NCBI GenBank assembly: GCA_020723105.1
Contig: DYJL01000025.1
Coordinates: 1-45,282 of the forward strand
DNA from: Nitrospira japonica
GTDB taxonomy: Bacteria; Nitrospirota; Thermodesulfovibrionia; UBA6902
Reading direction: 5' to 3'
Length of the DNA: 45,282 nucleotides
Position numbers and translations under genes: made by a program. Under the pieces are notes generated by a model. It did not search any database. It was not told where the DNA came from and was given only the letters and a program-made list of their open reading frames with translations. Shown in pieces: positions 5,288 to 40,746 of this stretch (its first letter is position 1; each line of letters opens with the position of its first letter).

Positions 5288-8229
5288 TTTGCCAGCGCCT
5301 CTTTTACTTTCTTCAGTAATTTTGCAGGGGAAATTGGCTTTACCACAAAGTTTATCCCGTCTTTGATTAGTTCATTCTTATTTATAAAGTCAGCGGGATA
5401 CCCGCTTGTCAGGAGCGCTTTTATGTCAGGTTTTATTTTCCTGATTCTGTCATATGCCTCTTTTCCGCTCATTTTTGGCATTATGATATCGAATATGAGA
5501 AGCTCGATGTTGTTTTTATTGTCAATAAACTTGGTTACAGCATCTTCGCCGTCAAAAGCCTCTATGACTTTATAGCCGAACTCCTCGAGCACCTGTTTTG
5601 TGAGGTTTCTCACTATAAACTCATCCTCTGCCAGGAGGACAGTATGTGGCGTCTCTGTGGTGTCAGGGATTTCTTCAGGTTCTGTCTTTTCAACTTCTGC
5701 TTTAATTGTCGGAAGGTAGATTTTAAATGTCGTGCCCTTGCCGGATTCGCTTTCGCAAACAATGTAACCATTGTGCTGTTTGATTATTCCATATACTATT
5801 GAAAGCCCAAGCCCTGTGCCTTTTCCAATATCCTTGGTTGTAAAAAAAGGCTCAAATATTCTTTCCCGGGTTTTCTCATCCATGCCAATACCTGTATCTG
5901 AAACCGAAATTTCAGCAAACTCTCCGTTGTTGCCGGCAGTGTTGTTATCTGACTTATGGAATTGCCGCTCTTCTTTCAGAAATCCCAATGACGCAAGGGC
6001 CACTTTCTTTGTCTCTATGGTCAGGCGGCCTCCATTTGGCATGGCATCCCTGGCGTTTGTACAGAGGTTAATAAGTACCTGATCTATCTGAATACTGTCA
6101 GCCATTACAATTAAGGTCCCGGCTTCCTCCGGCTCTTTTTTATCTGAGTCAGGCGCAGCGGAATTTAGTATAGTCGTTAACTCAATATCTTCCCCGATGA
6201 CCCTCAATAAAAGCTTTTTCATATTGCTGATAAGTTCGATAACGTCTACAGGCTCGGGATTGCTCACCTGCTGCCTGCTGAATGCGAGCAGGCTTTGCGT
6301 TAAATGGGCGCCTCTTTCAGATGATTCAAGTATTTGATCTATATTACTTTTGACCGGGTCGTCTTTTAAGCGCAATTTTAAAATATTTGCATATCCTATA
6401 ATGGCTGTCAGAACATTATTAAAGTCATGCGCAATGCCGCCTGCCAACTGTCCCACGGCCTCCATTTTTTGTGACTGGCGGAGTTGATCTTCAAGTTTTT
6501 TCCGCTCAGTAATGTCTCTGACAATGTGGATTAGTCCCGAAATGTTATTATTGCTGTCAAATCTTGGTATCGCCGTTATCTCGATAAACATTCCTAAATG
6601 GGGCTCGTATAATTCAGTTGTCGAAGGCAGCCCTGTGTTAAGGCAATCGCAGCTTGGACAGCCTTCCGGAGGACGATCGGTTCCATGATAAAAGCGATAA
6701 CATTTTTGGGGTGTTATATCTAAAATAGGGAGATGAAGTATTTTCTCGGCAGCTTTATTAGCGTGTATTATGTTGAAATCCTTATCGTGGACAGTGACCA
6801 TATCTGTGATGGAATTAAAGGTGTCTTCCCAGTCATGAGTAATCTGAAAGAGTTTTTCTTCCATTCTTTTATGTTCGGTCACATCGCGGAATATTCCGTT
6901 ACATGCAACTGCTTTTCCATCAACCATGTGTACTGTTGCATTGCCTTCTGCATGAATTAATCGTCCATCTTTGGCGACGAAAGTTACTTCAATATTACCC
7001 TTCGATTTGCCTGATAACACATCTTTTAGTGTATTTATACAGTGAGTTTTATAATCTGGATGTAAAATATTGAATACGGTAAGACCGGACAATTCTTCCA
7101 ACGTATAACCCATGGTCTTTAACCACGCAGGATTAACGTATAAGAAATGCCCATCCGGCAACACACTCTGAATCATATCGTTGGCGTTTTCAAATAAACT
7201 GTGGTAACGTTTCTCGTACTCTTTTAAAGCATCCTCCGCCTTCTTGCGTTCCGTTATGTCGCGTGCAACAGCGACTATATAGCTCTGGTCGAGCTGCACT
7301 AATTTCAGACTGACCTCTACAGGAAAAGTTGACCCATCCTTTCGCAGATGGACACTATTCCATACGCCGCCTCCTGTCCTCCTGAGATCCTCAATTATTT
7401 CCGGAAAGTCTGACGGATTGACGAAGGGATCAATGTCGAAAACTTTCATGGACAGAAGTTCCTCGCGACTGTAGCCGAGGTCTGAGCACGTTTTCTTATT
7501 TACATTGAGGAAACAACCTGTTTCCGGGTCAAGGACTTCAACAGAGTCATTGGACTGATTGATCAAGGTTTGATAGAGGCTGAGATTCTCCTCACTCTTG
7601 CGCAAAGTCGCCTCCGTCTCTTTTTGCTCTGTAATGTCCTCTACAATTCCAACGCCACTTTTGACTTCGTTGTTTGGGCCGAAAAGAGGCGCAGTGCGTA
7701 AAAAGACCCAGGTTTTATCGTCTCCCATGGAGAGATCGCATAAGCCTTCATAAACACCTTCGCCTCCGTCTAATGCCTTTCTCAAGGCCAGCAGTACTTT
7801 TTCTTCTTTCGACATCTTCAGGTCAAGACCTATTGTTTTTCTCGGAGGCAAATGTGCAATTACTATAAAGCGGTCATTACATTCTGTAATATGCAAATCT
7901 TTATCATAGTGAAATATCCCGACAGGAGAACACTGAAAAAGCAGTCGGTATCTTTCTTTATTTTCCCGCAGATCTGTTTTAGTTTTTTTGTATATTAAAA
8001 TGAGAGACCTGGCATATAGGGCTATCGTAATGACGCCGATAGTTAAGAAACGCATCCAGATTTCATGCAGGCCTGGTTTTAACAGGTGAGAAATGAAACT
8101 CTCGTGGTTGAATATAAATGCTTCTATTGCAGATTCAACAATCCAGTAGAGCGCTCCGAGTCCGATACTTAAGAATACTGTTTTACGTTTTTGAGAAGCT
8201 ATATATTTTTCTTCTGTTTCGGGGCGCAT
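5284..8229 (-). CDS. membrane hybrid sensor histidine kinase with four PAS domains and a C-terminal receiver
   Basis: Two membrane helices (about 18-40 and 58-80) are followed by four PAS/PAC modules: about 92-205, 215-332, 338-458 and 465-580. Each ends in a PAC-like DIT(E)xK motif. The HisKA domain has its phospho-acceptor at His601 in GGIAHDFNN. An ATPase domain carries the N box ([14 protein letters not shown]), G1 (DTGIGMD) and G2 ([13 protein letters not shown]). Residues 862-981 are a receiver with Asp914 ([11 protein letters not shown]) and Lys in VKPIS. PAS4 has a cysteine cluster (Cys510, Cys524, Cys527, Cys529 in the PEGCPSCDC region), which could bind metal or sense redox state; this is inference. 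It is coupled to the HD-GYP regulator downstream. The ligand is unknown. Confidence 0.93.
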
Positions 8230-8377
8230 GTAACACTTCTTTTAATAATCTTTATAGAAGCAAAAATGATTGTCCATGATTTATCTCATACGGTACGTAA
8301 TATACATATCGAATTTAAAAGGCAAAAACTTAAGAGAATAGTATCACTTTAGAAACTCCTTTACCACACATTATTCA

Positions 8378-8431
8378 GGGAATAGGGATTAGGGGGTAGG
8401 GGAAAAACGGTTTGAGCGGTTTGAACTGTTT
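8378..8431 (+). repeat. G-run plus CGGTTTGA composite repeat
   Basis: Positions 8378-8402 hold four G-runs (3, 3, 5 and 4 bases) separated by 4, 4 and 2 bases, a canonical G-quadruplex pattern. Positions 8408-8431 hold two CGGTTTGA units and end in GAACTGTTT. The copy lies in the 218-base gap between subtilase 1 and the kinase gene. Related G-runs or CGGTTTGA units recur around 10.7, 15.4, 19.3, 20.0, 22.0, 31.2 and 44.7 kb. Confidence 0.7.
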
Positions 8432-8447
8432 ACAAGGCGAATGAAAT

Positions 8448-10643
8448 TCAGCCTCTTTTGTTTCTTGCTCTTTTTATTATTAAAACAGTAACTGGTGCAA
8501 TTAATACGGCCAATGACATATAAGGGAAGGCAACAAACATGACAACTGGCATCAGCATAATTCTTGTAATGAATTTTAAATGTTCACTGTCTTTGATAAC
8601 ATTCGCTATCGAAGGAGAGTACGTATAGTAGAAATCAACAAAGGTCCTGCCAGGGAAATTGGTTAAAAGATGTCTGTCTCTGAAATCCCGCAGAACTTTT
8701 ACGTAGGGATGCATTATGCTTCCGTATGCAGCCGTAGCAATGAAACATCCGCCCCCTCCGCCCCCGCCTCCTCCTGAAGCGATTCCTTCGTTTCCTGAAT
8801 TATTGCCATTTCCGTTGCCAGGATTGCCGGTATCTTCCTGAAAATCATAATCTTCTTCCAGGAGAGCATTATAGGCATTTAGCCTCCCGCCAGATGAAAC
8901 CTTTTTGGCTAATAAAGGCTTGGCGTCAACGCTGTTTAATAAGGCGCCCTTTATCTGGAGGTTAGTCAATTGCGGTTTGAGGGCTTTTATAAGTCCTGCC
9001 ACACCTGATACATGAGGCGCAGCCATGGAGGTTCCGCTATAAGAAGTGTAGGTGTAGGTATTTACAACAATAGGCATCCTTGTAAGTTTAACGTTGTCAA
9101 GATAAACCCCTTCGCCGGTAATTGAAGCGTCTGTTGTCAACCCAAATCCAAAATAGAACTGGTCATACATTTCTGCTATGGCTGTTAATTCCTGCGATGA
9201 ATCTGAAATAAAGTCGCCGTTTGTTGATCCAGTCCTGTAATCAATCCAGTCCCAGGCGCTTCCATTAGTTGAATAGTTGATGTCCAGATAATCATAATTC
9301 TCTTCAAGCTGGCCTTTCCATGTGAAATACAGTGTATAAATATTATCTTTTACTGATGTAATTGGGGTCATGTAGCCGGCCCAAGAGGAAGTGTTATTGG
9401 CATAATTTACGCCAGGGCCGTCCTCAAGGCTGTTTGTTGCACTAAAGCCCGTTCCGCTTGTATCAGCCCAACTGGAATTGGTTCCCCCTCTGGTCCAGCC
9501 AAGAAGAGGGAGCGCTCCAACTGCTCCATCAAAGACTTCTTCATAGACAGTAGCAGGCGAGCCATAGCTGATTATTGGAACTGTACTGTATATGCTTGAG
9601 CCTGGAGCTGCCAGATCAACTGATGTTGAACCATAATTTGAAAACCACGCAAGGTTATCGTTGGCGTCCGTGGCAGCCACTGAGATGACATTGGAGCTTG
9701 TGTAGCTTGCCGGATAAAAAGGAGTTGAATCATTGCTGCTGCCGCTGTTTCCAGCAGCGCAGACTACAACTGCACTGGATGCGTCAATAGCATCCTTAAG
9801 TGCCTGGCTGTAACCGCCGCCGCCCCAACTATTATTGATAATATGAGCCCCGTTAGCATTTGCATATAAAATAGCAGACACTGCATCTGATGTTGTGCCG
9901 CTGCCGTCTATTCCTAAAAAGCGTAAAAGCATTATCTGGGCCTGCCACATTATGCCGGTAATGCCGGTGTTATTATCTCCCCCCGCTGCAATTGTTCCGG
10001 CTACGTGCGTCCCGTGTCCGTTGAAGTCAACAGGGTCATTGTCATCACCTATAAAATCCCATCCGTTACAGTCATCAATATAACCATTATTGTCATTATC
10101 AACCCCGTCTGAGCAACTGGTCTCACCTGTATTAGTCCAGATATTTCCAATAAGCTCGGGATGGTTATATGCAACACCTGTATCAATGACAGCTATAACT
10201 ACTGCGCTGTCTCCAGTTGTTAAATCCCAGGCTTCCGGAGCATCAATATCTGCGTCAATGGTACCGCCGGTCTGTCCGGTATTGTGCAGCCCCCACAGGC
10301 TATTAAAATAAGTATCATTCGCTATTGCATCAATATGAACAATGTAATTTGGTTCAGCATATTCGACATTCGGATCTCTCCTGTAGTACTCAACCGCTTC
10401 CTCCACGCTCATATTTTTCGGAAGCTTCAAATGGTGGACCCTTATTCCTTTAAAATCTTTCTTCTTGTGGGAGCCTACGGTTTTGTGCAGGGTATTGATC
10501 TTACTGATGTCTGAATCACCTTTAAATTTTACAAGAATTTCCCCTGGTACATATGCTGCAAATCCATTATTGCAGAAAAATATGAACAGCAGGAAAATAA
10601 AGGCGATTTTACCTGTTGTAATAGATGGAGATAATGGTCTCAT
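8448..10643 (-). CDS. subtilisin-like (S8) serine protease with CFI-box C-terminus (subtilase 1)
   Basis: This is a probably exported protease. A signal peptide (about 1-29) is followed by an I9-like propeptide (about 31-104) ending near EPNYIVHI. The catalytic residues are Asp154 (VIDTG), His210 (NGHGTHVAG), oxyanion Asn299 (AAGN) and Ser539 (GTSMAAPH). About 175 residues (roughly 355-530), rich in Trp, Tyr and Asn and looking like a beta-sandwich (MAM/immune-inhibitor type), interrupt the catalytic domain between the Asn and the Ser. A poly-Gly linker (624-632) precedes the CFI-box ([10 protein letters not shown], 633-642). The protein ends in a hydrophobic stretch and a basic tail, as in C-terminal sorting domains. 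It is a close paralogue of the gene at 10796-13141. No clear Shine-Dalgarno sequence precedes ATG 10643. Substrate unknown. Confidence 0.93.
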   Translation of the reverse strand: MRPLSPSITTGKIAFIFLLFIFFCNNGFAAYVPGEILVKFKGDSDISKINTLHKTVGSHKKKDFKGIRVHHLKLPKNMSVEEAVEYYRRDPNVEYAEPNYIVHIDAIANDTYFNSLWGLHNTGQTGGTIDADIDAPEAWDLTTGDSAVVIAVIDTGVAYNHPELIGNIWTNTGETSCSDGVDNDNNGYIDDCNGWDFIGDDNDPVDFNGHGTHVAGTIAAGGDNNTGITGIMWQAQIMLLRFLGIDGSGTTSDAVSAILYANANGAHIINNSWGGGGYSQALKDAIDASSAVVVCAAGNSGSSNDSTPFYPASYTSSNVISVAATDANDNLAWFSNYGSTSVDLAAPGSSIYSTVPIISYGSPATVYEEVFDGAVGALPLLGWTRGGTNSSWADTSGTGFSATNSLEDGPGVNYANNTSSWAGYMTPITSVKDNIYTLYFTWKGQLEENYDYLDINYSTNGSAWDWIDYRTGSTNGDFISDSSQELTAIAEMYDQFYFGFGLTTDASITGEGVYLDNVKLTRMPIVVNTYTYTSYSGTSMAAPHVSGVAGLIKALKPQLTNLQIKGALLNSVDAKPLLAKKVSSGGRLNAYNALLEEDYDFQEDTGNPGNGNGNNSGNEGIASGGGGGGGGGCFIATAAYGSIMHPYVKVLRDFRDRHLLTNFPGRTFVDFYYTYSPSIANVIKDSEHLKFITRIMLMPVVMFVAFPYMSLAVLIAPVTVLIIKRARNKRG

Positions 10644-10696
10644 CTATTACTATTTCGGCAAAATCAGGCTATTACTTTAACCGGTCTTATTTGAAA

Positions 10697-10720
10697 GGGA
10701 TTAGGGATTAGGGGGTAGGG
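10697..10720 (+). repeat. G-run repeat (quadruplex-capable)
   Basis: Four G-runs of 3, 3, 5 and 3 bases are spaced by 4, 4 and 2 bases (GGGATTAGGGGGTAGGG core). Degenerate CGGTTTAAGC sequence follows at about 10740. It lies in the presumed promoter region of subtilase 1. Confidence 0.7.
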
Positions 10721-10766
10721 AATAGGTAGGAAACAAGGAACGGTTTAAGCGATTAAAGCTGGTCTT

Positions 10767-10970
10767 TAACAGGCTGCTGAAAAAGTCTGTAATTGTCATT
10801 GCGAGGAGCGGATGTTGCGACGAAGCAATCTCAAACTTATTGCTTTATAAAGAAGTGAGTTTACGGAGTTTATCCCGAGCGGTAAAGAAAGATTGCTTCG
10901 CTTCGCTCGCAATGACAAGCGAGGGACCTGCACGCAAAGACAGCTAAAATACTTTTTCAGCAACCTGTTA
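10767..10970. mobile_element. MITE-like nested inverted-repeat element
   Basis: The outer terminal repeats are 20 bases long (10767-10786 and 10951-10970; TAACAGGCTGCTGAAAAAGT type) with one mismatch. Nested inside is a second inverted repeat, 10795-10917, whose ends read GTCATTGCGAG and CTCGCAATGAC and which carries GAAGCAATCT in both arms. The element is 204 bases long and has no transposase. It occupies the 3' end of subtilase 2, which reads through it and stops in the inner repeat. Both end types are familiar as dispersed non-coding repeats in bacterial genomes. Confidence 0.75.
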
Positions 10971-13141
10971 GATCTTTTATGACTGATAACATGGATAATA
11001 AGGGCTGATGAGATAAATATTACGAATGAATACAGAGGGAAAACAATTACCATTACCAGAGGCATCAGGATAATTTTTGTAATAAATTTCAGATATTCCC
11101 TGTCTTTTATCAGATTTGCTACAGGGGGCGAGTATTTATAGTAGAAACTTACAAAGGCCTTGCCATATGAATTGGTCAAAAGATGCTGGTCTCTGAATTC
11201 CCGCAAGGCTTTTACATACGGGTGCATCGCACTGCCATAGGCAGCCGTAGCAATAAAGCATCCGCCGCCGCCACCACCTCCGCTATTACCGGTATTCGTA
11301 ACACGGTTCTTACAGGAAACATCACGTGGTATTTCCTGTAATGCATTGTATGCATTTAATCTGCCGTCTGTTAACACTTTACCGTCAAGTGACGGCCTTA
11401 TATCTACTGAGCGCAAGATCATATCCTTAACCTGACAGGCGTTAAGATCAGGATAAAGAGAGAAAATTAACCCTGCAACACCTGATACATGCGGTGCAGC
11501 CATTGAGGTGCCGGAATAACTTGTATAAGTGTAGCTGCCTGTTGAAAGCGGATTTCTTGAAATAGTTATATCATCAATGTAAACGCCGTCATACGTTACG
11601 GAGTTGTCAGACATTAAGCCGAATCCAAAATAAAAACTGTTAAACATCTCGGCTATATCCGTAAGGTCTGTAGAATACGAAACGAAATTTCCCCCTATTA
11701 TTCCCGTCTGCCTGTCTATCGAATACCAGTCTGTCCCGTCAGCAGAAATAATAAGGTCTAAAAAATCATTATTATTTTCCAGCACGCCTTTCCATTGCAA
11801 GGTGAGGGTGTAAATATTATCCTGCTGCCATGATATTGGAATCGCATAATAGCTCCAGGAAACTATGTTAGTAAGATAATTTCCATCCGGACTGTCTTCA
11901 AGGCTATTGGTCCCGCTTAGTCCTGTACCAGAGGTAACAGCCCATGTGGAATTTGCGCTCCTGTTCCAGCCCAAAAGCGGCAGATTTCCGGAGGCGCTAT
12001 CAAAGTTTTGACTATAGACAGTTATAGAGGGGTCTTCTGTTAATTGAGGGATTGTACTGTAGACAGACTCTCCCGGCGCTGACAGGTCCACTGATTTGAT
12101 TCCATAGTTTGAAAAAGATGCAAGGTTATCATAATGATTGGTGGCTGTAACCGATATTATGTTATTGCTCTTGAAGCTGGCAGGATAGTTAGGCGTATTA
12201 TCAATGTTTGCGCTGCTGCTGCCCCCATCATTTCCAGCTCCGCAAACTACCACGGCCTGAGTTGCATCAATGGCATCTTTAAGCGCCTGGCTGTAACTGC
12301 CTCCGCCCCAACTGCAGTTTATTATTTGTGCTCCATTGGCGTTTGCATATAAAATTGCAGCAACAGCATCTGCGGTTGTGCCAGCGCCATTTATTCCCAG
12401 GAATCTTAATGGCATTATCATGGCCTGCCACATGACGCCCGTAATCCCTGCACTATTATTTCCGGTTGCCGCTATTGTTCCGGCAACATGCGTGCCATGA
12501 CCATTATAGTCTGACGGATCGTTGTCATTGCCTAAGAAATCCCATCCCCTGCAGTCATCAACATAACCGTTGCCGTCATTGTCAATACTGTCTGTGCAAC
12601 TGGTTTCGCCTGTATTGGTCCAGATGTTGCCGGCTAAATCAGGGTGGTTATATGCGACCCCTGAGTCCACAACGGCAATAACAACATTTGCTGAACCAGT
12701 GGTTAAATCCCAGGCCTCCGGCGCATCAATATCAGCATCGCTGGTTCCGCCAGTCTGCCCGGTATTATGAAGTCCCCAGAGTTGAGTGAAAGAAGAATCA
12801 TTGGGTGTTGTCGCTAATGCGTGAACAATATAATTGGGTTCAGCGTATTCCACATTCGGGTCGCTTCTGTAATATTCAACAGCTTCTTCCACGCTCATAT
12901 TGTCAGGAAGCTTTATTTGCTGAAGCCGGAGGGGCCGGAAATCTTTTTTATTGACAGCTTTTCTAAATGTATGAAGCCTGTTGATTGTAACTGTATCAGC
13001 GCTGTCTTTAAATCTGACCAGAATTTCTCCCGGGACGTATTCATGCCTGCCTGTTTTACCGAAGGATGGAAGAACTGATAAGATGATTATTGCTCCGCTT
13101 ATAAATATAAAATTTATTTTCTTCATTTTAATAACGTGCAT
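10796..13141 (-). CDS. subtilisin-like (S8) serine protease with CFI-box and repeat-derived tail (subtilase 2)
   Basis: The architecture matches subtilase 1. It has a signal peptide, an I9-like propeptide (about 34-108), catalytic Asp159 (VVDSG), His216 (NGHGTHVAG), Asn304 (GAGN) and Ser545 (GTSMAAPH). The same beta-rich insertion (about 365-535) precedes the Ser. A poly-Gly linker leads to the CFI-box ([10 protein letters not shown], 628-637) and a hydrophobic stretch near 690-718. Subtilase 1 stops just after this basic tail. Here the frame continues from about residue 724 into a 204-base MITE-like element, adding roughly 57 Arg/Leu/Ser-rich residues before a stop inside the repeat. The tail is probably an accidental extension that may mask the C-terminal sorting signal. 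ATG 13126 (MKKINFIF) is an alternative start with a tidier signal peptide. Confidence 0.92.
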
Positions 13142-27254: not shown

Positions 27255-28427
27255 TCAATGTTTAATTTTTTCCAGATAAGAGGGATAATTGAAATCCGGG
27301 CTCCGGTCGTTTGTATGACATTTTAAACACACATAAACTGTAACAGGTTTCAGGGGTTTTTCAAAGTCGGAGAGATGTTTCCTGCCAGTTCCATGGCATA
27401 CTTCACACTGAACATTTGCAAGTCCAGGGGTGGCTTCCATGCTGAAGAATCCTCCTTCCGCAAATCCAACGGTGTGACATATTACACATTCCGGGTCAAA
27501 TGATTTACCAACATGCTCAAGGCTTGAAAAGGCCTTTGCATGTTTAGTTTTCTCCCAGCTTTCCACAAAGGGCTGATGGCATTCTGCACACTTAGCAGTG
27601 CCGAGGTAGGCAGATTCTGTTAGTGGTTTTTCGGTTTTTTTCAACAGGCCGGCAACCTGGGAATCATAATCATTCAGGATCTGACGAATTGCTTTATCTT
27701 CTTTTATATCGGCTCCGAGAGGCTGCCATTTGTGCCGAAAATCTGTCACCTTTCCTGTGCGGTCCAGATGCAGCGTTAAGATGCCAAATTTTTTCCCTTT
27801 TGGATAACCTGCAACAATAATTGCTGAATTTGTTTTAACAGGCTCCTCAAGTATTTCCTCTGAAGACAATATTATCACATCCCATCCCTTAATGGTTTTA
27901 GCATCGGAAACATTGATATCAGAAAGCAGGATATTTATCTTTCCTTTTTCGGGCCCCTCCGGATTCGTGCCAAGATGGATGTTTAATTTATTAATGTTTT
28001 TTAAAACAGCCCTGGAATAATTTGGAGAGTCAGCTACAACCTTTATTTTATATTTATGTGAAACCGGCAACAGAAAGTCTGCCGGCAACACTGCTTCTCT
28101 TTTCCCAAAAGCAACAGCATCATATCCGATAATCCCGTAAGCCTTCAGAAGCGTCTCAGTTTTCAACCTCCCCTGCGGCGTGTCTTCGCTGCTGAAATTG
28201 CCGGCGTCAACGAGAAGATACGGCGAAAGTCCTTTCTTATTCTCTTTTATATAACCTGAAAGTCTTGCCAGTCCCCCGAAATCTGTTTTCGGAGAGCAGC
28301 CGCAAGGCTCCAGCTCACCCTGCAGGCTGCCAGTGTAAATGATGTTCAAAACTTGCTCCTTGCCGTACGCAGCCGGAGCGGCCATAACGATAAGAAGCAA
28401 AATGTTAATTAATAAAATTCGTTTCAT
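27255..28427 (-). CDS. fusion of a degenerate metallophosphoesterase-like domain and a tetraheme cytochrome c
   Basis: A signal peptide (ending near AAYG) precedes a domain with the layout of 5'-nucleotidase/UshA-type phosphoesterases (about 27-250). The metal-ligand motifs are altered: IIYTGSLQGELEP stands where the family has TNDxHGxxEP, and FGKRE stands where GNHE is expected. DAGNF is kept. A CGC motif follows the first strand. The C-terminal part has four CxxCH hemes (CAECH, CVICH, CEVCH, CLKCH), with spacing like the cytochrome c554-type domain. The ATG at 28427 lies within the end of the ABC ATPase gene. The role is probably periplasmic electron transfer with a ligand-binding rather than catalytic N-domain; the domain fold is recognised but the function is not. 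Confidence 0.82.
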   Translation of the reverse strand: MKRILLINILLLIVMAAPAAYGKEQVLNIIYTGSLQGELEPCGCSPKTDFGGLARLSGYIKENKKGLSPYLLVDAGNFSSEDTPQGRLKTETLLKAYGIIGYDAVAFGKREAVLPADFLLPVSHKYKIKVVADSPNYSRAVLKNINKLNIHLGTNPEGPEKGKINILLSDINVSDAKTIKGWDVIILSSEEILEEPVKTNSAIIVAGYPKGKKFGILTLHLDRTGKVTDFRHKWQPLGADIKEDKAIRQILNDYDSQVAGLLKKTEKPLTESAYLGTAKCAECHQPFVESWEKTKHAKAFSSLEHVGKSFDPECVICHTVGFAEGGFFSMEATPGLANVQCEVCHGTGRKHLSDFEKPLKPVTVYVCLKCHTNDRSPDFNYPSYLEKIKH

Positions 28428-29511
28428 AAACAAAAAACAGACTTTCCCCCCGCAGAGCTACTACTGCATCCTGTGCCTTTTCAAGACCCAGCTTCCGAAA
28501 TGCATAGTTTGGAACTTCTATTTCAACTGTTCTATGTGCCCCTTCCGGTTTGATAAGAACTGTATGTGAGCCCCCTTTTTCAATAACGTCGGTTATCTTT
28601 CCCCGCAGAGCATTGTCCTGTGCATGTTCCATATAACCTTGCCTCAGAATCATTACTTCTTCTGCACGGATACCCACTGAAACGGGAGTCCCAGGCTCTA
28701 TTGTTTTCAGCTTGCTGTGCGGCGCCGTAAGTTTGGCGGCGAGCTCAGGACAAAAAAGGGAAATGCTGTCGTTATTGCTGCCGGTTATTTCTGCTTTGAA
28801 TATGTTTTTAATGCCAAAAAAGTCTGCTGCACTGCGTGTCGAAGGGCTGTGATATATCTCGTCCTTATCCCCGGTCTGGTGAATTCGTCCGTCTATCATG
28901 ATGCTTATACGATCTGCCAGAAAGAATGTTTCCTCCATATCATGGCTCACCATGAGAATAGTGAAACGATATTTCTCCTGCAATTCCTTGAGCAAAAACC
29001 ACATCTCCTTTTTCATACCTTCATGAAGCGCCGAGAGAGGCTCATCAAGGAGGAGATATCTATGCCCGGGGGCCAGCGCCCTTGCAAGTGCGACTCTCTG
29101 CCGCTCTCCTCCGCTGAGGTTGACGGCCTTCCTCTTAAGCAGATGGTTGATGCTCAAAGATGCAGCTACTTCGCGCGCGGCCTCATAGCGTTCTTTATGA
29201 CCGCTATTACGGCTGTGTCTGATGCCGTAGAAGATATTTTCCTCTATGGAAATGTGAGGGAACAGGGCCAGATCCTGTGGGACATAGGAAAATCCCCTTT
29301 CATGCACAGGTAAATTCGTTATATCTTTTCCATCCAGTATAATCCTGCCGTTCTGAATTTTTCTGAATCCTATGACTGCTTCAAGGAGGGTAGTCTTACC
29401 ACACCCCGTAGGCCCAACAATGACATGGCACGAGCCCGTCTGCACGGTCAGAGATGTATCCTTTAGTGAAAACCCTTTCGTTTGAACTGAAATATTCCTT
29501 ATCTCAAGCAC
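28405..29511 (-). CDS. modC: ABC transporter ATP-binding protein, molybdate/tungstate type
   Basis: This cytoplasmic ATPase energises the adjacent permease. Walker A is GPTGCGKTT (about 33-41), the Q-loop is YVPQDLALFP, the signature is LSGGERQR and Walker B is YLLLDEPLSAL, with H-loop His in MVSHDMEE. The C-terminal 130 residues form a TOBE/MOP-like region (SVGIRAEEVMIL), as in ModC and related oxyanion importers. It overlaps the permease stop by 8 bases and the downstream cytochrome gene by 23 bases. The molybdate assignment rests on the modAB neighbours; tungstate is equally possible. Confidence 0.88.
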   Translation of the reverse strand: MLEIRNISVQTKGFSLKDTSLTVQTGSCHVIVGPTGCGKTTLLEAVIGFRKIQNGRIILDGKDITNLPVHERGFSYVPQDLALFPHISIEENIFYGIRHSRNSGHKERYEAAREVAASLSINHLLKRKAVNLSGGERQRVALARALAPGHRYLLLDEPLSALHEGMKKEMWFLLKELQEKYRFTILMVSHDMEETFFLADRISIMIDGRIHQTGDKDEIYHSPSTRSAADFFGIKNIFKAEITGSNNDSISLFCPELAAKLTAPHSKLKTIEPGTPVSVGIRAEEVMILRQGYMEHAQDNALRGKITDVIEKGGSHTVLIKPEGAHRTVEIEVPNYAFRKLGLEKAQDAVVALRGESLFFVYETNFIN

Positions 29512-36167: not shown

Positions 36168-36244
<77 letters not shown>

Positions 36245-36498: not shown

Positions 36499-36514
36499 TG
36501 TGATATAAATCACA
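36499..36514 (+). promoter_or_regulatory. CRP/FNR-family operator upstream of the decaheme cytochrome gene
   Basis: TGTGATATAAATCACA is a complete match to the TGTGA-N6-TCACA consensus and is palindromic apart from its two central bases. Its centre (36506.5) lies 41.5 bases before the start predicted from the -10 box at 36536, the classic class II activation distance. The regulator is not in the window. Confidence 0.7.
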
Positions 36515-36535
36515 GAGCAGAAAAACAATTGACTT

Positions 36536-36541
36536 TATCAT
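36536..36541 (+). promoter_or_regulatory. predicted -10 box of the cytochrome-porin operon
   Basis: TATCAT with no good -35 hexamer, as expected for an activator-dependent promoter. The start is predicted near 36548, giving a leader of about 22 bases before ATG 36570. Confidence 0.5.
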
Positions 36542-36569
36542 AAACAATGAGCGAGTCAAGGATGAAGGT

Positions 36570-37331
36570 ATGAAGAAAATTTTACTGATTTCAATGCTGA
36601 TGGTTCTTTATGGTGCTTGTACAGGATTTGCCGAGATAGGGAAATACGAGACAGGCTGTGAAAAATGTCATGTTCCCGACAATTGGGAACCCAAGAAATA
36701 TCTCCACGATCCCCTGACTATTGATCTTAAAGGAGCACACAGGACCTTGGACTGTAAAGAATGTCATAAGAAATCGGAAGGCTACAAAGGATTGAATGCC
36801 GATTGCATTAGTTGTCACAAGGACGTGCATTTCAACCAGTTCAGCCGTTATTGCGGAGACTGCCATAAACAGCAGACCTGGATACCTCTTAATTTTAAGC
36901 ATACGGGTATCGGCTTCCGTCTTGCCGGAAGCCATAGGGGGGCAGATTGCAGCGACTGTCATAAAAACAGGGATTACAGAAATACGCCTTCAGATTGTTT
37001 TATATGTCATCAGGCTGCGTACCAATCGGCGCCAATGCATGTGGTATCAGGCTTTTCACATGATTGTACGGAGTGTCACAAGAGATCAAACACGTGGGAT
37101 TTTACAGCATTTGTGCATGAATTTTTCAGCTTTACTGGAGCGCATCGTGCTCTGAAGAATGACTGTTTAGCCTGCCATAGCGCACCCAATAGCATTCCGG
37201 CTGGTACAACAGAGCAGGACTGTTATGTATGTCATGCAGGTGATTATCAGGCCGCTCCAAATCATGTGAGCTTCAACTATTCACACGATTGCAGATTTTG
37301 CCATTCAGGAAACACATGGGGAATAGAATGA
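36570..37331 (+). CDS. exported decaheme c-type cytochrome
   Basis: A signal peptide (MKKILLISMLMVLYGACTGFA) is followed by ten CxxCH heme sites in about 230 residues: CEKCH, CKECH, CISCH, CGDCH, CSDCH, CFICH, CTECH, CLACH, CYVCH and CRFCH. Recurring GAHR/GSHRG and FSHDC/YSHDC segments provide possible distal His ligands and point to internal duplication. Such heme density gives a continuous electron wire. It overlaps the downstream beta-barrel gene (ATGA), so it may act as the heme partner inside or beneath an outer-membrane porin. AAGGA precedes ATG 36570, and a CRP-type site lies upstream. Not recognisable as a named cytochrome. Confidence 0.92.
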   Translation: MKKILLISMLMVLYGACTGFAEIGKYETGCEKCHVPDNWEPKKYLHDPLTIDLKGAHRTLDCKECHKKSEGYKGLNADCISCHKDVHFNQFSRYCGDCHKQQTWIPLNFKHTGIGFRLAGSHRGADCSDCHKNRDYRNTPSDCFICHQAAYQSAPMHVVSGFSHDCTECHKRSNTWDFTAFVHEFFSFTGAHRALKNDCLACHSAPNSIPAGTTEQDCYVCHAGDYQAAPNHVSFNYSHDCRFCHSGNTWGIE

Positions 37332-38572
37332 TGAAAAAGACGCTTTTTTTAATCATCGTATTGATTTTTACTCCTCTTATTTATGCAGAGGATATAAAAG
37401 GGAGGTTTTACGTAAGCGACTATTTTTCTCATGACAGCAACCATAGCGACCTGCATATCCTGAGTTCGAGACTCAAACTATACAGGCGTGAAGATGAGAA
37501 GTCCAGATTTTACTTTAATCTTGACGGAAGAATCCGGGAGAAGATTGTTAATGGAGATATACACGAGGATATTCCTGAATACAGGTTTGATGAAATATGG
37601 CTGGGTTATAAATTTCCGGAGCAGAAATTAAATCTTATCATCGGTAGGCAATATGTAAATGAAATGTATAACACTCATATTGACGGTTTAAATGCCAGGT
37701 ATTTGCTTGGAAAAGGTTTGGGTGTTGGAATTTTCGGCGGCCTGGCCCCGGATAAATATGATAGTTCTTTCAATTCAAAATATAAATCTGCGGGAATATA
37801 CGGCTTTTTGGATCAGGATAAATATCAATTGAATATAGGTTATGAAAACCTCAGTTATAAGGGGAAAACAGACCGGGAATATTTTTCAGTGAGGTTAAAT
37901 TCAGATGTCAGCAATAGAGTAAGATTAAATGCACTCTCATCAGTCAGCGTTAATCAGGAAACAAATAAATTTGAAGTCGAAAATGCGAATGTGAATATTT
38001 CATATGCTTCTTCAAAGGCGCTTCACTTCCAATTGTTTCATGATTATTACAGGGCCATTAAATACTTTGAATCCTCAAAAAAGTTTCTGGACAGCTTCAA
38101 TATCAGGGACGATTACTTTCTGGATACTAACTCTCAAACCAGAACGGGGGCGAGAGTTGACTATAAGTTGTCAAAAGACCTCAGCGCATATGTCTCCGCA
38201 GCATATCAAAATAGAAAGACTGATAACAAGGAAGCAGTCAGGCTTACAGGGGGGATTAGGAAGTACAATTTTTCGGGATTCGATGTTTCAGGCCGGTATA
38301 CGTATATAGATAATTTTACCTCAGGAAGCAGTGAATTCAACGTTGAGGTATCGCGCACTTTCTTTGATAAGTTTGATGCATCTGTATATGCAAGCCATGA
38401 ACAGGAAAAACTCGATATTGAAAACGGCTTCACATCGGGTCCTCTGACATACGGAACATCCCTGTACTGGACGATCAATAGACACTATTCTGCATCACTG
38501 TTTGTTGAACGCAGCGAAGAAAATGATTATCACAATACCGCACTGTTTACACAGATAGGTTACAGGTTTTAA
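37328..38572 (+). CDS. outer-membrane beta-barrel protein, putative porin of a porin-cytochrome conduit
   Basis: A signal peptide (MKKTLFLIIVLIFTPLIYA) leads to about 395 residues of alternating polar and aromatic strands. Examples are SRFYFNLDGRIREK, KLNLIIGRQYV and KDLSAYVSAAYQNRK. The sequence ends in QIGYRF; a C-terminal Phe is the usual signal for barrel assembly. There are enough strands for a barrel of roughly 16-20. No CxxC is seen, unlike MtrB. The start at ATG 37328 overlaps the decaheme stop codon, so the two are translationally coupled. The function as an electron-conduit sheath is inferred from context. Confidence 0.82.
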   Translation: MMKKTLFLIIVLIFTPLIYAEDIKGRFYVSDYFSHDSNHSDLHILSSRLKLYRREDEKSRFYFNLDGRIREKIVNGDIHEDIPEYRFDEIWLGYKFPEQKLNLIIGRQYVNEMYNTHIDGLNARYLLGKGLGVGIFGGLAPDKYDSSFNSKYKSAGIYGFLDQDKYQLNIGYENLSYKGKTDREYFSVRLNSDVSNRVRLNALSSVSVNQETNKFEVENANVNISYASSKALHFQLFHDYYRAIKYFESSKKFLDSFNIRDDYFLDTNSQTRTGARVDYKLSKDLSAYVSAAYQNRKTDNKEAVRLTGGIRKYNFSGFDVSGRYTYIDNFTSGSSEFNVEVSRTFFDKFDASVYASHEQEKLDIENGFTSGPLTYGTSLYWTINRHYSASLFVERSEENDYHNTALFTQIGYRF

Positions 38573-38621
38573 TGAGTGGAAGAATATAAAAAGAGATCAA
38601 TTCCAAAACAAGGAGGATGTG

Positions 38622-38897
38622 ATGAGTGTTAACGAATCAGTGAGCGAAAAAGGCGAGAGCAAAAAAAATCCCCACCCGCCAAAGATATTACGTTTCCGCA
38701 AGTCTGAGAGGATGGTGCACTGGGCCCAAGATCACTATGCCAGATGGTATCAGGAAAATTTTGAAGGCAGTCCGAGCCCTGTTGAGGAGCCTGCTAACAT
38801 TATCCGTTTTATCAGGGAAGATTATCCCCTTGCCAATAGCGATACATCGCCTGCCCTGCAGCACATAGAAGCTGTTCAGGAAGGAGGTGAGAAATAA
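38622..38897 (+). CDS. uncharacterised 92-residue protein
   Basis: This short soluble protein has no signal peptide. AGGAGG sits five bases before ATG 38622, so it is very probably translated. The segment ILRFRKSERMVHWAQ resembles the N-terminal RF-x3-ER-x2-HW motif of b-type cytochrome subunits (formate dehydrogenase gamma and hydrogenase b type). The following residues are polar, so no membrane helix follows. It could be a remnant or a soluble relative. It lies between the porin and the MopE-type cytochrome. Function unknown. Confidence 0.65.
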   Translation: MSVNESVSEKGESKKNPHPPKILRFRKSERMVHWAQDHYARWYQENFEGSPSPVEEPANIIRFIREDYPLANSDTSPALQHIEAVQEGGEK

Positions 38898-38927
38898 CAT
38901 AACCATAATATGTCTGAATATGTGTCA

Positions 38928-38942
38928 TGCCGTTTTACGGCA
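38928..38942 (+). other. small hairpin in the gap before the hexaheme gene
   Basis: TGCCGT-TTT-ACGGCA forms a 6-base stem with a 3-base loop, without a T-run. It may mark RNA processing or partial attenuation within the operon. Confidence 0.3.
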
Positions 38943-38982
38943 GATAAGCAGTCAAAATAAATTATAACGAGGTGAAGTACCC

Positions 38983-40746
38983 ATGAGGAAAAAAACAATT
39001 ATATATTTATGGAGTATCGCACTCGTGGCATGGGCCCTTTGGGCCTCCGGCGCTGAGGCCTACGATAAGTATACTGCTTCAAAAGGAGCCTTCAATACCA
39101 ACTGCGCGCAATGCCATGGAGATTTTCGTGCACCTTACAATTCACTTATAGACGGACAATCATGGGGCGGCAATCTCCATGATATACACCGCAATACCAT
39201 GTTGAACGGAGATTGTAATGCCTGTCATCTGGGTTTCAGCAAAACCCCTGTTTTTCTTAACAGTTCAAATGGAGGAAATGGCTTTACTCCAGTTGGTTGT
39301 CTGGGATGTCACGGCCGTGCAGAAGATGATACGGCCATAAGTACGAGCGGGGCTGCTTTGCGCCAGCATCATTATAATACGGGCGAGACAATCTGTTTTC
39401 AATGTCATGGTGATTCGAATCCCGCAACTTATAAACCTGTAAATGAAAAAACATCTCCGCCATATTACTTTACTCCGGATGCAGCGCATCCAAATAAACC
39501 CACTGACAGTTGTAACCAGTCAGGGAAAGAAAACTATGCAGGTTCTGCAATCGGACTTGATAACGACGGTGACGGGCTTTTCGACAGTAACGATTCTGAT
39601 TGCCAGACGATAGTGGCATGTATGGATAATGACGGCGACGGTTATGGTTCCAATGGTATTTCTACATGTTCAAAAGGCACGGCGGTTGACTGCAATGATA
39701 ATAATGCTGCCATTAATCCGGGCGCCACTGAGGTATGCGATGGCGCAGATAACAACTGCGATGGACAAACAGACGAAGGCATAAAAAACACCTATTACAA
39801 AGATACTGACGGAGATGGTTATGGCATCCCTTCTGTTTCAATACAAGGCTGTACCCAGCCGGCCGGTTATGCGGCGAACAACACAGACTGTAACGATAAT
39901 GACCCCATAGTGCATCCGAATCAGACGTGGTATCAGGATGCGGACGGAGACGGATATTCAAGCAGCAATATAATTGTACAATGTGCCCGGCCGGCTGGTT
40001 ATAAAACAGCTTCAGAATTAAAGGCCACTTCAGGAGACTGCAACGACAATAGCGCAGCCGTTAACCCGGGCGCCTCAGACGCAAACTGTAACGGTGTTGA
40101 CGAAAACTGCAATGGAACTGCTGATGAAAATTATGTGACGACAAATACCACTTGCGGAGCCGGAGCGTGCGCATCCACAGGCCAGTTGCTTTGTCAAAAT
40201 GGTTCAGCCGTTGACACTTGTACCCCTGCAGCATCTCAGACAGAAGGGCCTGCCGGAAATCCTACCTGCAGTGACATGATTGATAATGATTGCGATGGGG
40301 TGACTGACGCATCTGATTCTAATTGCATAGCTGCACCTGCATCCTGCGTTGACAAAGACGGTGACAGTTATGCAGGAAAGGGTAAGGGGAAAAGGAATAA
40401 AAACTGCGGACCTGTAGATTGTAATGACTCTGATTCCAGCATCTACCCTGGAGCTACAGAGATTTACGGTGATCATATTGACCAGAATTGCAATGGCAAT
40501 AAGGATGACAAGCGTCCAAAAAATAAAGAGGGCAAGAGAATGACCTGTAGCGACGGGATAGATAATGACCTTGATGGACTGACTGACTGCAATGATTCTG
40601 GTTGTTCTGAGAATCCGTCATGCAGCAAACCAGATGACGATGACGATGATGATTTCACGCACATGAATAGAACGGATTGTACAAGCTGTCACACGCCACA
40701 CAACTCAGTAACAAATTGTCTGAGTTGTCACACAGGGTTAAAGTGA
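38983..40746 (+). CDS. large exported hexaheme cytochrome with MopE-type metal-binding repeats
   Basis: After a signal peptide (ending GAEA), residues 35-145 carry four CxxCH sites (CAQCH, CNACH, CLGCH, CFQCH). The middle (about 190-545) has several MopE-like repeats built on DxDGDGY...DCND...PGA.E.CDG.DNNCDG, rich in Asp and Asn, with thrombospondin-type Ca-binding character. Cys-rich spacers lie between them. After a run of seven Asp, two more hemes (CTSCH, CLSCH) end the protein. Of 587 residues, the hemes thus bracket a cation-binding rod. GAGGTGA precedes ATG 38983. Likely location is the cell surface or periplasm; extracellular electron transfer is plausible by context with the porin and decaheme protein. 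Confidence 0.9.

Follow-up and report, generated by a model that had tools for sequence, protein, structure and literature searches.

A decahaem cytochrome and outer-membrane barrel in Nitrospira japonica as a probable reduced porin-cytochrome conduit of PCC3-like descent

Results

A decahaem cytochrome gene is coupled to a barrel gene

We analysed a stretch of 45,282 nucleotides from Nitrospira japonica (contig DYJL01000025.1, assembly GCA_020723105.1), hereafter the window. The locus under study comprises the following features:

36499–36514, no strand assigned: CRP/FNR-like palindrome TGTGATATAAATCACA, a perfect TGTGAN6TCACA, 71 bp before the decahaem start
36570–37331, plus strand: exported decahaem cytochrome c, 253 aa, ten CxxCH, PF14522 at 46.3 bits
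37328–38572, plus strand: outer-membrane beta barrel (P0002), 413 aa, 22 predicted strands, ATGA-coupled to the decahaem gene
38619–38897, plus strand: b561-type cytochrome remnant, 92 aa, N-tail joined to C-tail, aligned with nine relatives
38983–40746, plus strand: MopE-repeat protein, 587 aa, with tetrahaem head and dihaem tail, PF11617 at 112.5 bits
40787–40806, plus strand: terminator-like hairpin after the MopE-type gene, from a pattern scan (consensus match only)

All ten CxxCH motifs of the decahaem cytochrome are intact, and the protein has 11 other histidines. Its TGA (37329–37331) overlaps the barrel ATG (37328) as ATGA, and the barrel start region contains a further in-frame ATG at 37331. 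The initial annotation had described an exported ten-haem cytochrome coupled in this way to a barrel that ends in phenylalanine and contains no CxxC; all of this holds, since the barrel ends in ...GYRF and is free of cysteine. The AlphaFold2 model of the decahaem cytochrome was of low confidence (pLDDT 44, pTM 0.26). The case for a lipobox in its signal (YGAC) was weak, and a search of its own genome with an overly strict DNA pattern of haem motifs at close spacing gave no match. The upstream palindrome is the sole perfect TGTGAN6TCACA match found by pattern scan in the window, and a CRP/FNR-like site with at most one mismatch also lies upstream of the giant cytochrome genes of four relatives described below (G045, G016, G036 and G037), at an expectation of about 0.2–3% each. 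A tRNA-Met gene (36168–36244, minus strand) is situated between ccsB and the conduit operon. Because ccsB is followed by a recN-like gene, either immediately or with one or two small genes in between, in four genomes of the same genus, the conduit block may have been inserted at the ccsB/tRNA-Met site. Elsewhere, the window encodes a small exported haem protein with three CxxCH (1894–2223), two tandem subtilisin-like proteases that have a Gly-rich linker and a C-terminal segment type in common (8448–13141), and an exported metallophosphatase-like protein whose C-terminal end carries CxxCH motifs (27255–28433).

By profile, the barrel falls in a Nitrospirota family outside MtrB/PioB

Structure prediction gave the barrel expected by the initial annotation, with 22 long strands and without a plug (pLDDT 67.9, pTM 0.60). 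Its best structural matches were TonB-dependent receptors, with Z values reaching 20.3 and an rmsd of 4.7 over 343 residues, which show that the modelled barrel is large and say nothing on its function; MtrB was not among the best 50 structural matches listed, which is uninformative either way. In profile searches, the barrel did not match the MtrB/PioB families (PF11854, TIGR03509). When aligned by hhalign with a true MtrB relative (L118), it gave an E value of 0.033 and a probability of 1.5%, whereas a distant barrel of its own family gave an E value of 8.8e-30. Likewise, the decahaem cytochrome scored 12.7 bits against the DmsE/MtrA family TIGR03508 (cut-off 192.2), of which a cytochrome encoded at another locus of the same genome (L117, 243.8 bits) served as positive control. 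The earlier view that the pair is unlike MtrA/MtrB therefore agrees with the profile comparison, and by its profiles the barrel is a member of a Nitrospirota family other than MtrB/PioB. The L117 locus (G000:C34:46000-65000, 7573–10586) is itself a candidate for a second conduit, of Mtr type, in which the DmsE/MtrA-family cytochrome, with nine CxxCH counted, is followed by an MtrB/PioB-like barrel.

Matches to the barrel were found in 10 of the order's 47 genomes, counting its own, at 52–64% identity, and in 12 of the 230 genomes of the class, where one is a weak partial match and one belongs to another family. Orthologues within the class are 51–64% identical, and the hosts that carry names are Nitrospirae/Thermodesulfovibrionia MAGs. 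A second class of the phylum yielded six distant relatives with E values between 1e-35 and 1e-49, and three further distant barrels, matched at E 1e-9 to 1e-16, have a long N-terminal extension. N-terminally extended barrels of this kind, with open frames of about 900–990 aa, were seen at L114–L116 (G248, G263 and G256), those of G248 and G256 adjoining haem-rich cytochromes. Most genomes of the window's genus are without the barrel system, and the barrel of G037, a member of that genus, groups with another genus in the tree, suggesting transfer. Unusually fast evolution of the window barrel was tested and rejected, as its end branch (0.23) equals the median. In addition, it retains 93 of the 97 residues invariant in nine relatives. 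Both results speak against decay of the barrel gene.

Relatives of the barrel adjoin giant modular cytochromes

In the relatives with a readable neighbourhood, the barrel adjoins a multihaem cytochrome, so that gene order bore out the proposal that cytochrome and barrel form a pair. The giants that are complete single ORFs contain 37 (G026), 38 (G260), 42 (G016), 46 (G272), 51 (G252) and 68 (G244) CxxCH motifs, a range that applies to complete single ORFs only, the other giants being cut by contig ends or runs of N. The most haem-rich member found is the 1638-aa cytochrome of G244 (L112, 2919–7835), encoded immediately before the barrel gene. The giant of G045 has 41 + 11 CxxCH in two overlapping frames and that of G248 has 28 + 10; the contigs of G037 and G042 stop just upstream of the barrel, G263 is cut, and in G015 the ORF adjoining the barrel is interrupted by N, a 39-haem piece being located elsewhere. 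In Thermodesulfovibrionia relatives, a b561-type cytochrome usually comes next, with a 4Fe-4S protein in its place in G052. In the distant class, all five cases (5/5) have a PCC3-like inner-membrane protein, about 300 aa long, in which the WX3HX13H motif occurs twice.

When the decahaem cytochrome was matched to each giant, the same three parts were recognized throughout: an N-part with 15–23 haems and 17–20% Lys+Arg, a middle part with 10–11 haems (9 where the sequence is cut), and a variable C-part, which has few charged residues, much Ser/Thr/Ala/Gly and at most 38 haems. The decahaem cytochrome matched residues 702–937 of the giant of G036, a genome of the same genus, at 60% identity. Judged from sequence, it is essentially the middle module of the giant provided with a signal peptide. 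Since its end resembles the later repeats, sequence is missing on both sides. The N-part proved as well conserved as the middle part, so that better conservation of the middle module was not upheld, and the C-part was less conserved. G020 and G021 contain b561 and adjacent cytochromes of 19 and 21 haems, which align with the N-part of the giants from the start, and gave no barrel match. Because these two genomes have b561 and the N-part only, the N-part appears to go with b561, and the middle and C-parts with the barrel. These results, which come from few genomes, point to a giant built of separable modules.

The 92-aa ORF is a b561-type remnant that lacks the membrane domain

The barrel gene is followed in nine relatives by a gene for a 229–339 aa protein, and all five of the b561 relatives scanned matched PF01292 at 55–69 bits (cut-off 30.1). 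The 92-aa ORF gave no family match in the profile search, and a PF01292 domain with membrane helices was not found in it. Alignment revealed an N-tail KILRFRKSERMVHWA fused to a C-tail QDHYARWYQENFE, the 177 codons of the membrane domain missing in frame at a junction around 38720–38727. The deletion ends have 5–8 bp in common around TGGGC in the three relatives examined; for this reason, the membrane domain was probably lost by deletion at this microhomology. The initial annotation had listed a 92-aa protein; the ORF is real, but it encodes two joined ends of b561 rather than an independent protein. In the retained parts, three of 18 invariant residues are lost (p ~0.06 when compared with the rounded, pooled value of barrel and module), and the remnant gene may be drifting. 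Neither a full b561 of the barrel-linked type nor the N-part of the giant was found elsewhere in the assembly, which was scored 100% complete, and the only PF01292 gene detected in a search of the genome for a replacement b561 encodes a hydrogenase cytochrome b. A second partial b561 copy with an internal stop codon, likely a pseudogene, was noted in G016 (G016:C1:1775140-1775499).

The MopE-type hexahaem protein is probably a neighbour

The MopE-type protein has CxxCH at residues 41, 78, 106, 138, 566 and 579, with five PF11617 repeats between the two haem groups (cut-off 27 bits), consistent with the earlier description of four N-terminal and two C-terminal haems around a repeat rod. It thus shares its repeats with the MopE-repeat proteins of PF11617, and differs from them in the added tetrahaem head and, in some members, the dihaem tail. 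On the coding strand between the decahaem and MopE-type genes, the sole terminator-like site lies inside the MopE-type gene, which may be co-transcribed with the conduit genes. Eight of nine candidates were picked out as orthologues, with a tetrahaem head, a variable rod and an optional dihaem tail, and none of them adjoins this barrel. Four genomes of the same genus (G036, G038, G040 and G041) have an orthologue, and the barrel was not found there; in G036 a giant is present at a contig end, and its barrel may simply be unassembled. Synteny gives no ground for the proposed role of the MopE-type protein as partner, and it is probably a neighbour, not part of the conduit. In G040, the MopE-repeat hexahaem gene is divergent from a gene set for a possible barrel of 439 aa and two proteins with 5 and 10 haems (L036, 3330–9632), and this possible barrel is weakly similar to the window barrel (hhalign E 2e-4, probability 46%).

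Discussion

We propose that the locus is a reduced, stand-alone porin-cytochrome conduit derived from a PCC3-like trans-envelope system, a reading that we hold to be probable as a whole. That the locus arose by reduction is very likely, and retention of the conduit function is slightly favoured. In relatives, synteny shows a set of giant cytochrome and 22-strand barrel, usually with b561 in Thermodesulfovibrionia. In such a set, the N-part with its 15–23 haems would cross the periplasm from b561, the ten haems of the middle part would be placed at the barrel or within it, and the C-part would reach outside. The lineage of the window would then have undergone in-frame deletions of the b561 membrane domain, the N-part and most of the C-part, leaving the ten-haem module and the barrel, whose likeliest function would be to carry electrons across the outer membrane in an MtrAB-like manner, fed by another periplasmic carrier. 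Reduction with a retained conduit is supported by the gene order of relatives, the match of the decahaem cytochrome to the middle part, the in-frame b561 deletion, the converse case of G020 and G021, the constrained barrel, the ten intact CxxCH, the kept CRP/FNR-like site and the absence of the missing parts from the rest of the assembly. Counted against it are the single genome, the poor decahaem model and the residues lost from the b561 remnant. The place of the middle module in the barrel is read from its retention in the window, and conservation gives this no added support. A bolder version, in which the giant of the relatives is one polypeptide running from the inner membrane through the 22-strand barrel to the outside and the window is a natural deletion product that isolates its minimal barrel-crossing core, ten haems and a barrel, as a working stand-alone conduit, is tentative and in our view doubtful.

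Alternatively, the operon could be decaying, useful electron transfer having ended with the loss of b561 and most of the giant, and the remaining frames being on their way out. The b561 remnant without membrane domain and with lost invariant residues, the lack of a replacement b561 in the genome, and the absence of the system from most genomes of the genus, which implies frequent loss or gain, would fit such a course. However, the frames are open, the ten CxxCH are intact, the barrel is under the same constraint as its relatives and the regulatory-like site is kept; moreover, all deletions are in frame, and those in the cytochrome coincide with module boundaries. We regard decay as unlikely. 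A primary four-gene conduit, in which the MopE-type hexahaem protein would act as the partner at the surface and the 92-aa protein would be a further component, could be read from the common strand, the short gaps and the want of a coding-strand terminator-like site other than the one inside the MopE-type gene, but it is improbable given that orthologues of the MopE-type gene lack linkage to the barrel, some being present in genomes without a barrel match, and that the 92-aa ORF is a b561 remnant. The suggestion of a separate family thus stands for the barrel, which lies outside MtrB/PioB, but not for the cluster, which would be a reduced giant-cytochrome system rather than a primary new four-gene family. 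An assembly artefact, in which giant and b561 are full-length in the true genome and the short genes are chimaeras or collapsed repeats, is brought to mind by exact repeats of at least 40 bp within the giant genes of two relatives (L062 and L024) and by several relatives' contigs that stop within the giant gene; it has little probability, because the b561 junction corresponds to only 5–8 bp shared in relatives, exact repeats of at least 12 bp are absent from the window region, and the missing parts are nowhere else in the complete-scoring assembly. Equally remote is an ordinary solute porin whose operon is shared by chance with a soluble periplasmic decahaem cytochrome: sub-threshold similarity to Porin_4 and structural matches to general outer-membrane barrels speak for it, against which the barrel is kept beside haem-rich cytochromes in two classes at 21–29% barrel identity, a plug-less 22-strand barrel would leave a very wide hole, and the distant class has a PCC3-like inner-membrane partner.

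The reduced-conduit reading draws on comparison, by gene content and description, with PCC3, in which a barrel is joined by a b-type protein of the inner membrane and by two cytochromes, a periplasmic one of 21–27 haems and an extracellular one of 10–35 haems (He et al. 2017, PMC5566968; Gallionellaceae, PMC10734462). The loci of the relatives share with PCC3 a barrel, a b-type protein of the inner membrane, and cytochromes that pack very many haems into few residues. The N-part of the giant resembles the periplasmic cytochrome and its C-part the variable, small-residue-rich extracellular one, and in the distant class the protein of about 300 aa carries both WX3HX13H motifs. A barrel beside a haem-rich cytochrome is found both in the window (10 haems) and in the relatives (37–68). 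In contrast to PCC3, the relatives have a single fused giant instead of separate periplasmic and extracellular cytochromes, and Thermodesulfovibrionia have b561 (PF01292); the window has one decahaem cytochrome with ten haems only and, for an inner-membrane protein, the b561 remnant in place of an intact gene. By analogy, the giant looks like the two cytochromes of PCC3 joined in a single chain. Gain and loss of CxxCH domains were reported in related clusters (PMC7399161), so that the shortening in the window follows a known tendency; for the joint loss of both cytochrome ends and b561, we found no description in open PMC papers.

MtrAB, MtoAB and PioAB also place a decahaem cytochrome gene beside a barrel gene, and the window pair likely has the same working principle, although neither of its proteins falls in the MtrA/DmsE or MtrB/PioB families and its barrel is shorter, with 22 predicted strands. 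The OmbB-OmaB-OmcB and Ext conduits of Geobacter, likened here by description, are likewise porin-cytochrome clusters whose barrels are, according to the literature, unrelated to MtrB. Operons of SEEP-SRB1 encode unusually large cytochromes with 16 and 26 haem motifs, and did not yield a porin of any known porin-cytochrome type (PMC5539420); our giants exceed them in haem number and are linked to a barrel.

The Nitrospirota barrel family and its accompanying giant cytochromes are apparently undescribed in the open PMC papers that we searched. As to where the haems of very haem-rich porin-cytochrome wires are placed among periplasm, barrel and outside, and how such wires cross both membranes, evolution appears to have dissected one, with the barrel and middle haems left in one lineage and the inner-membrane end without barrel in two others. 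A testable module map follows from this dissection, and the small core of 253 + 413 aa would suit expression and structure work.
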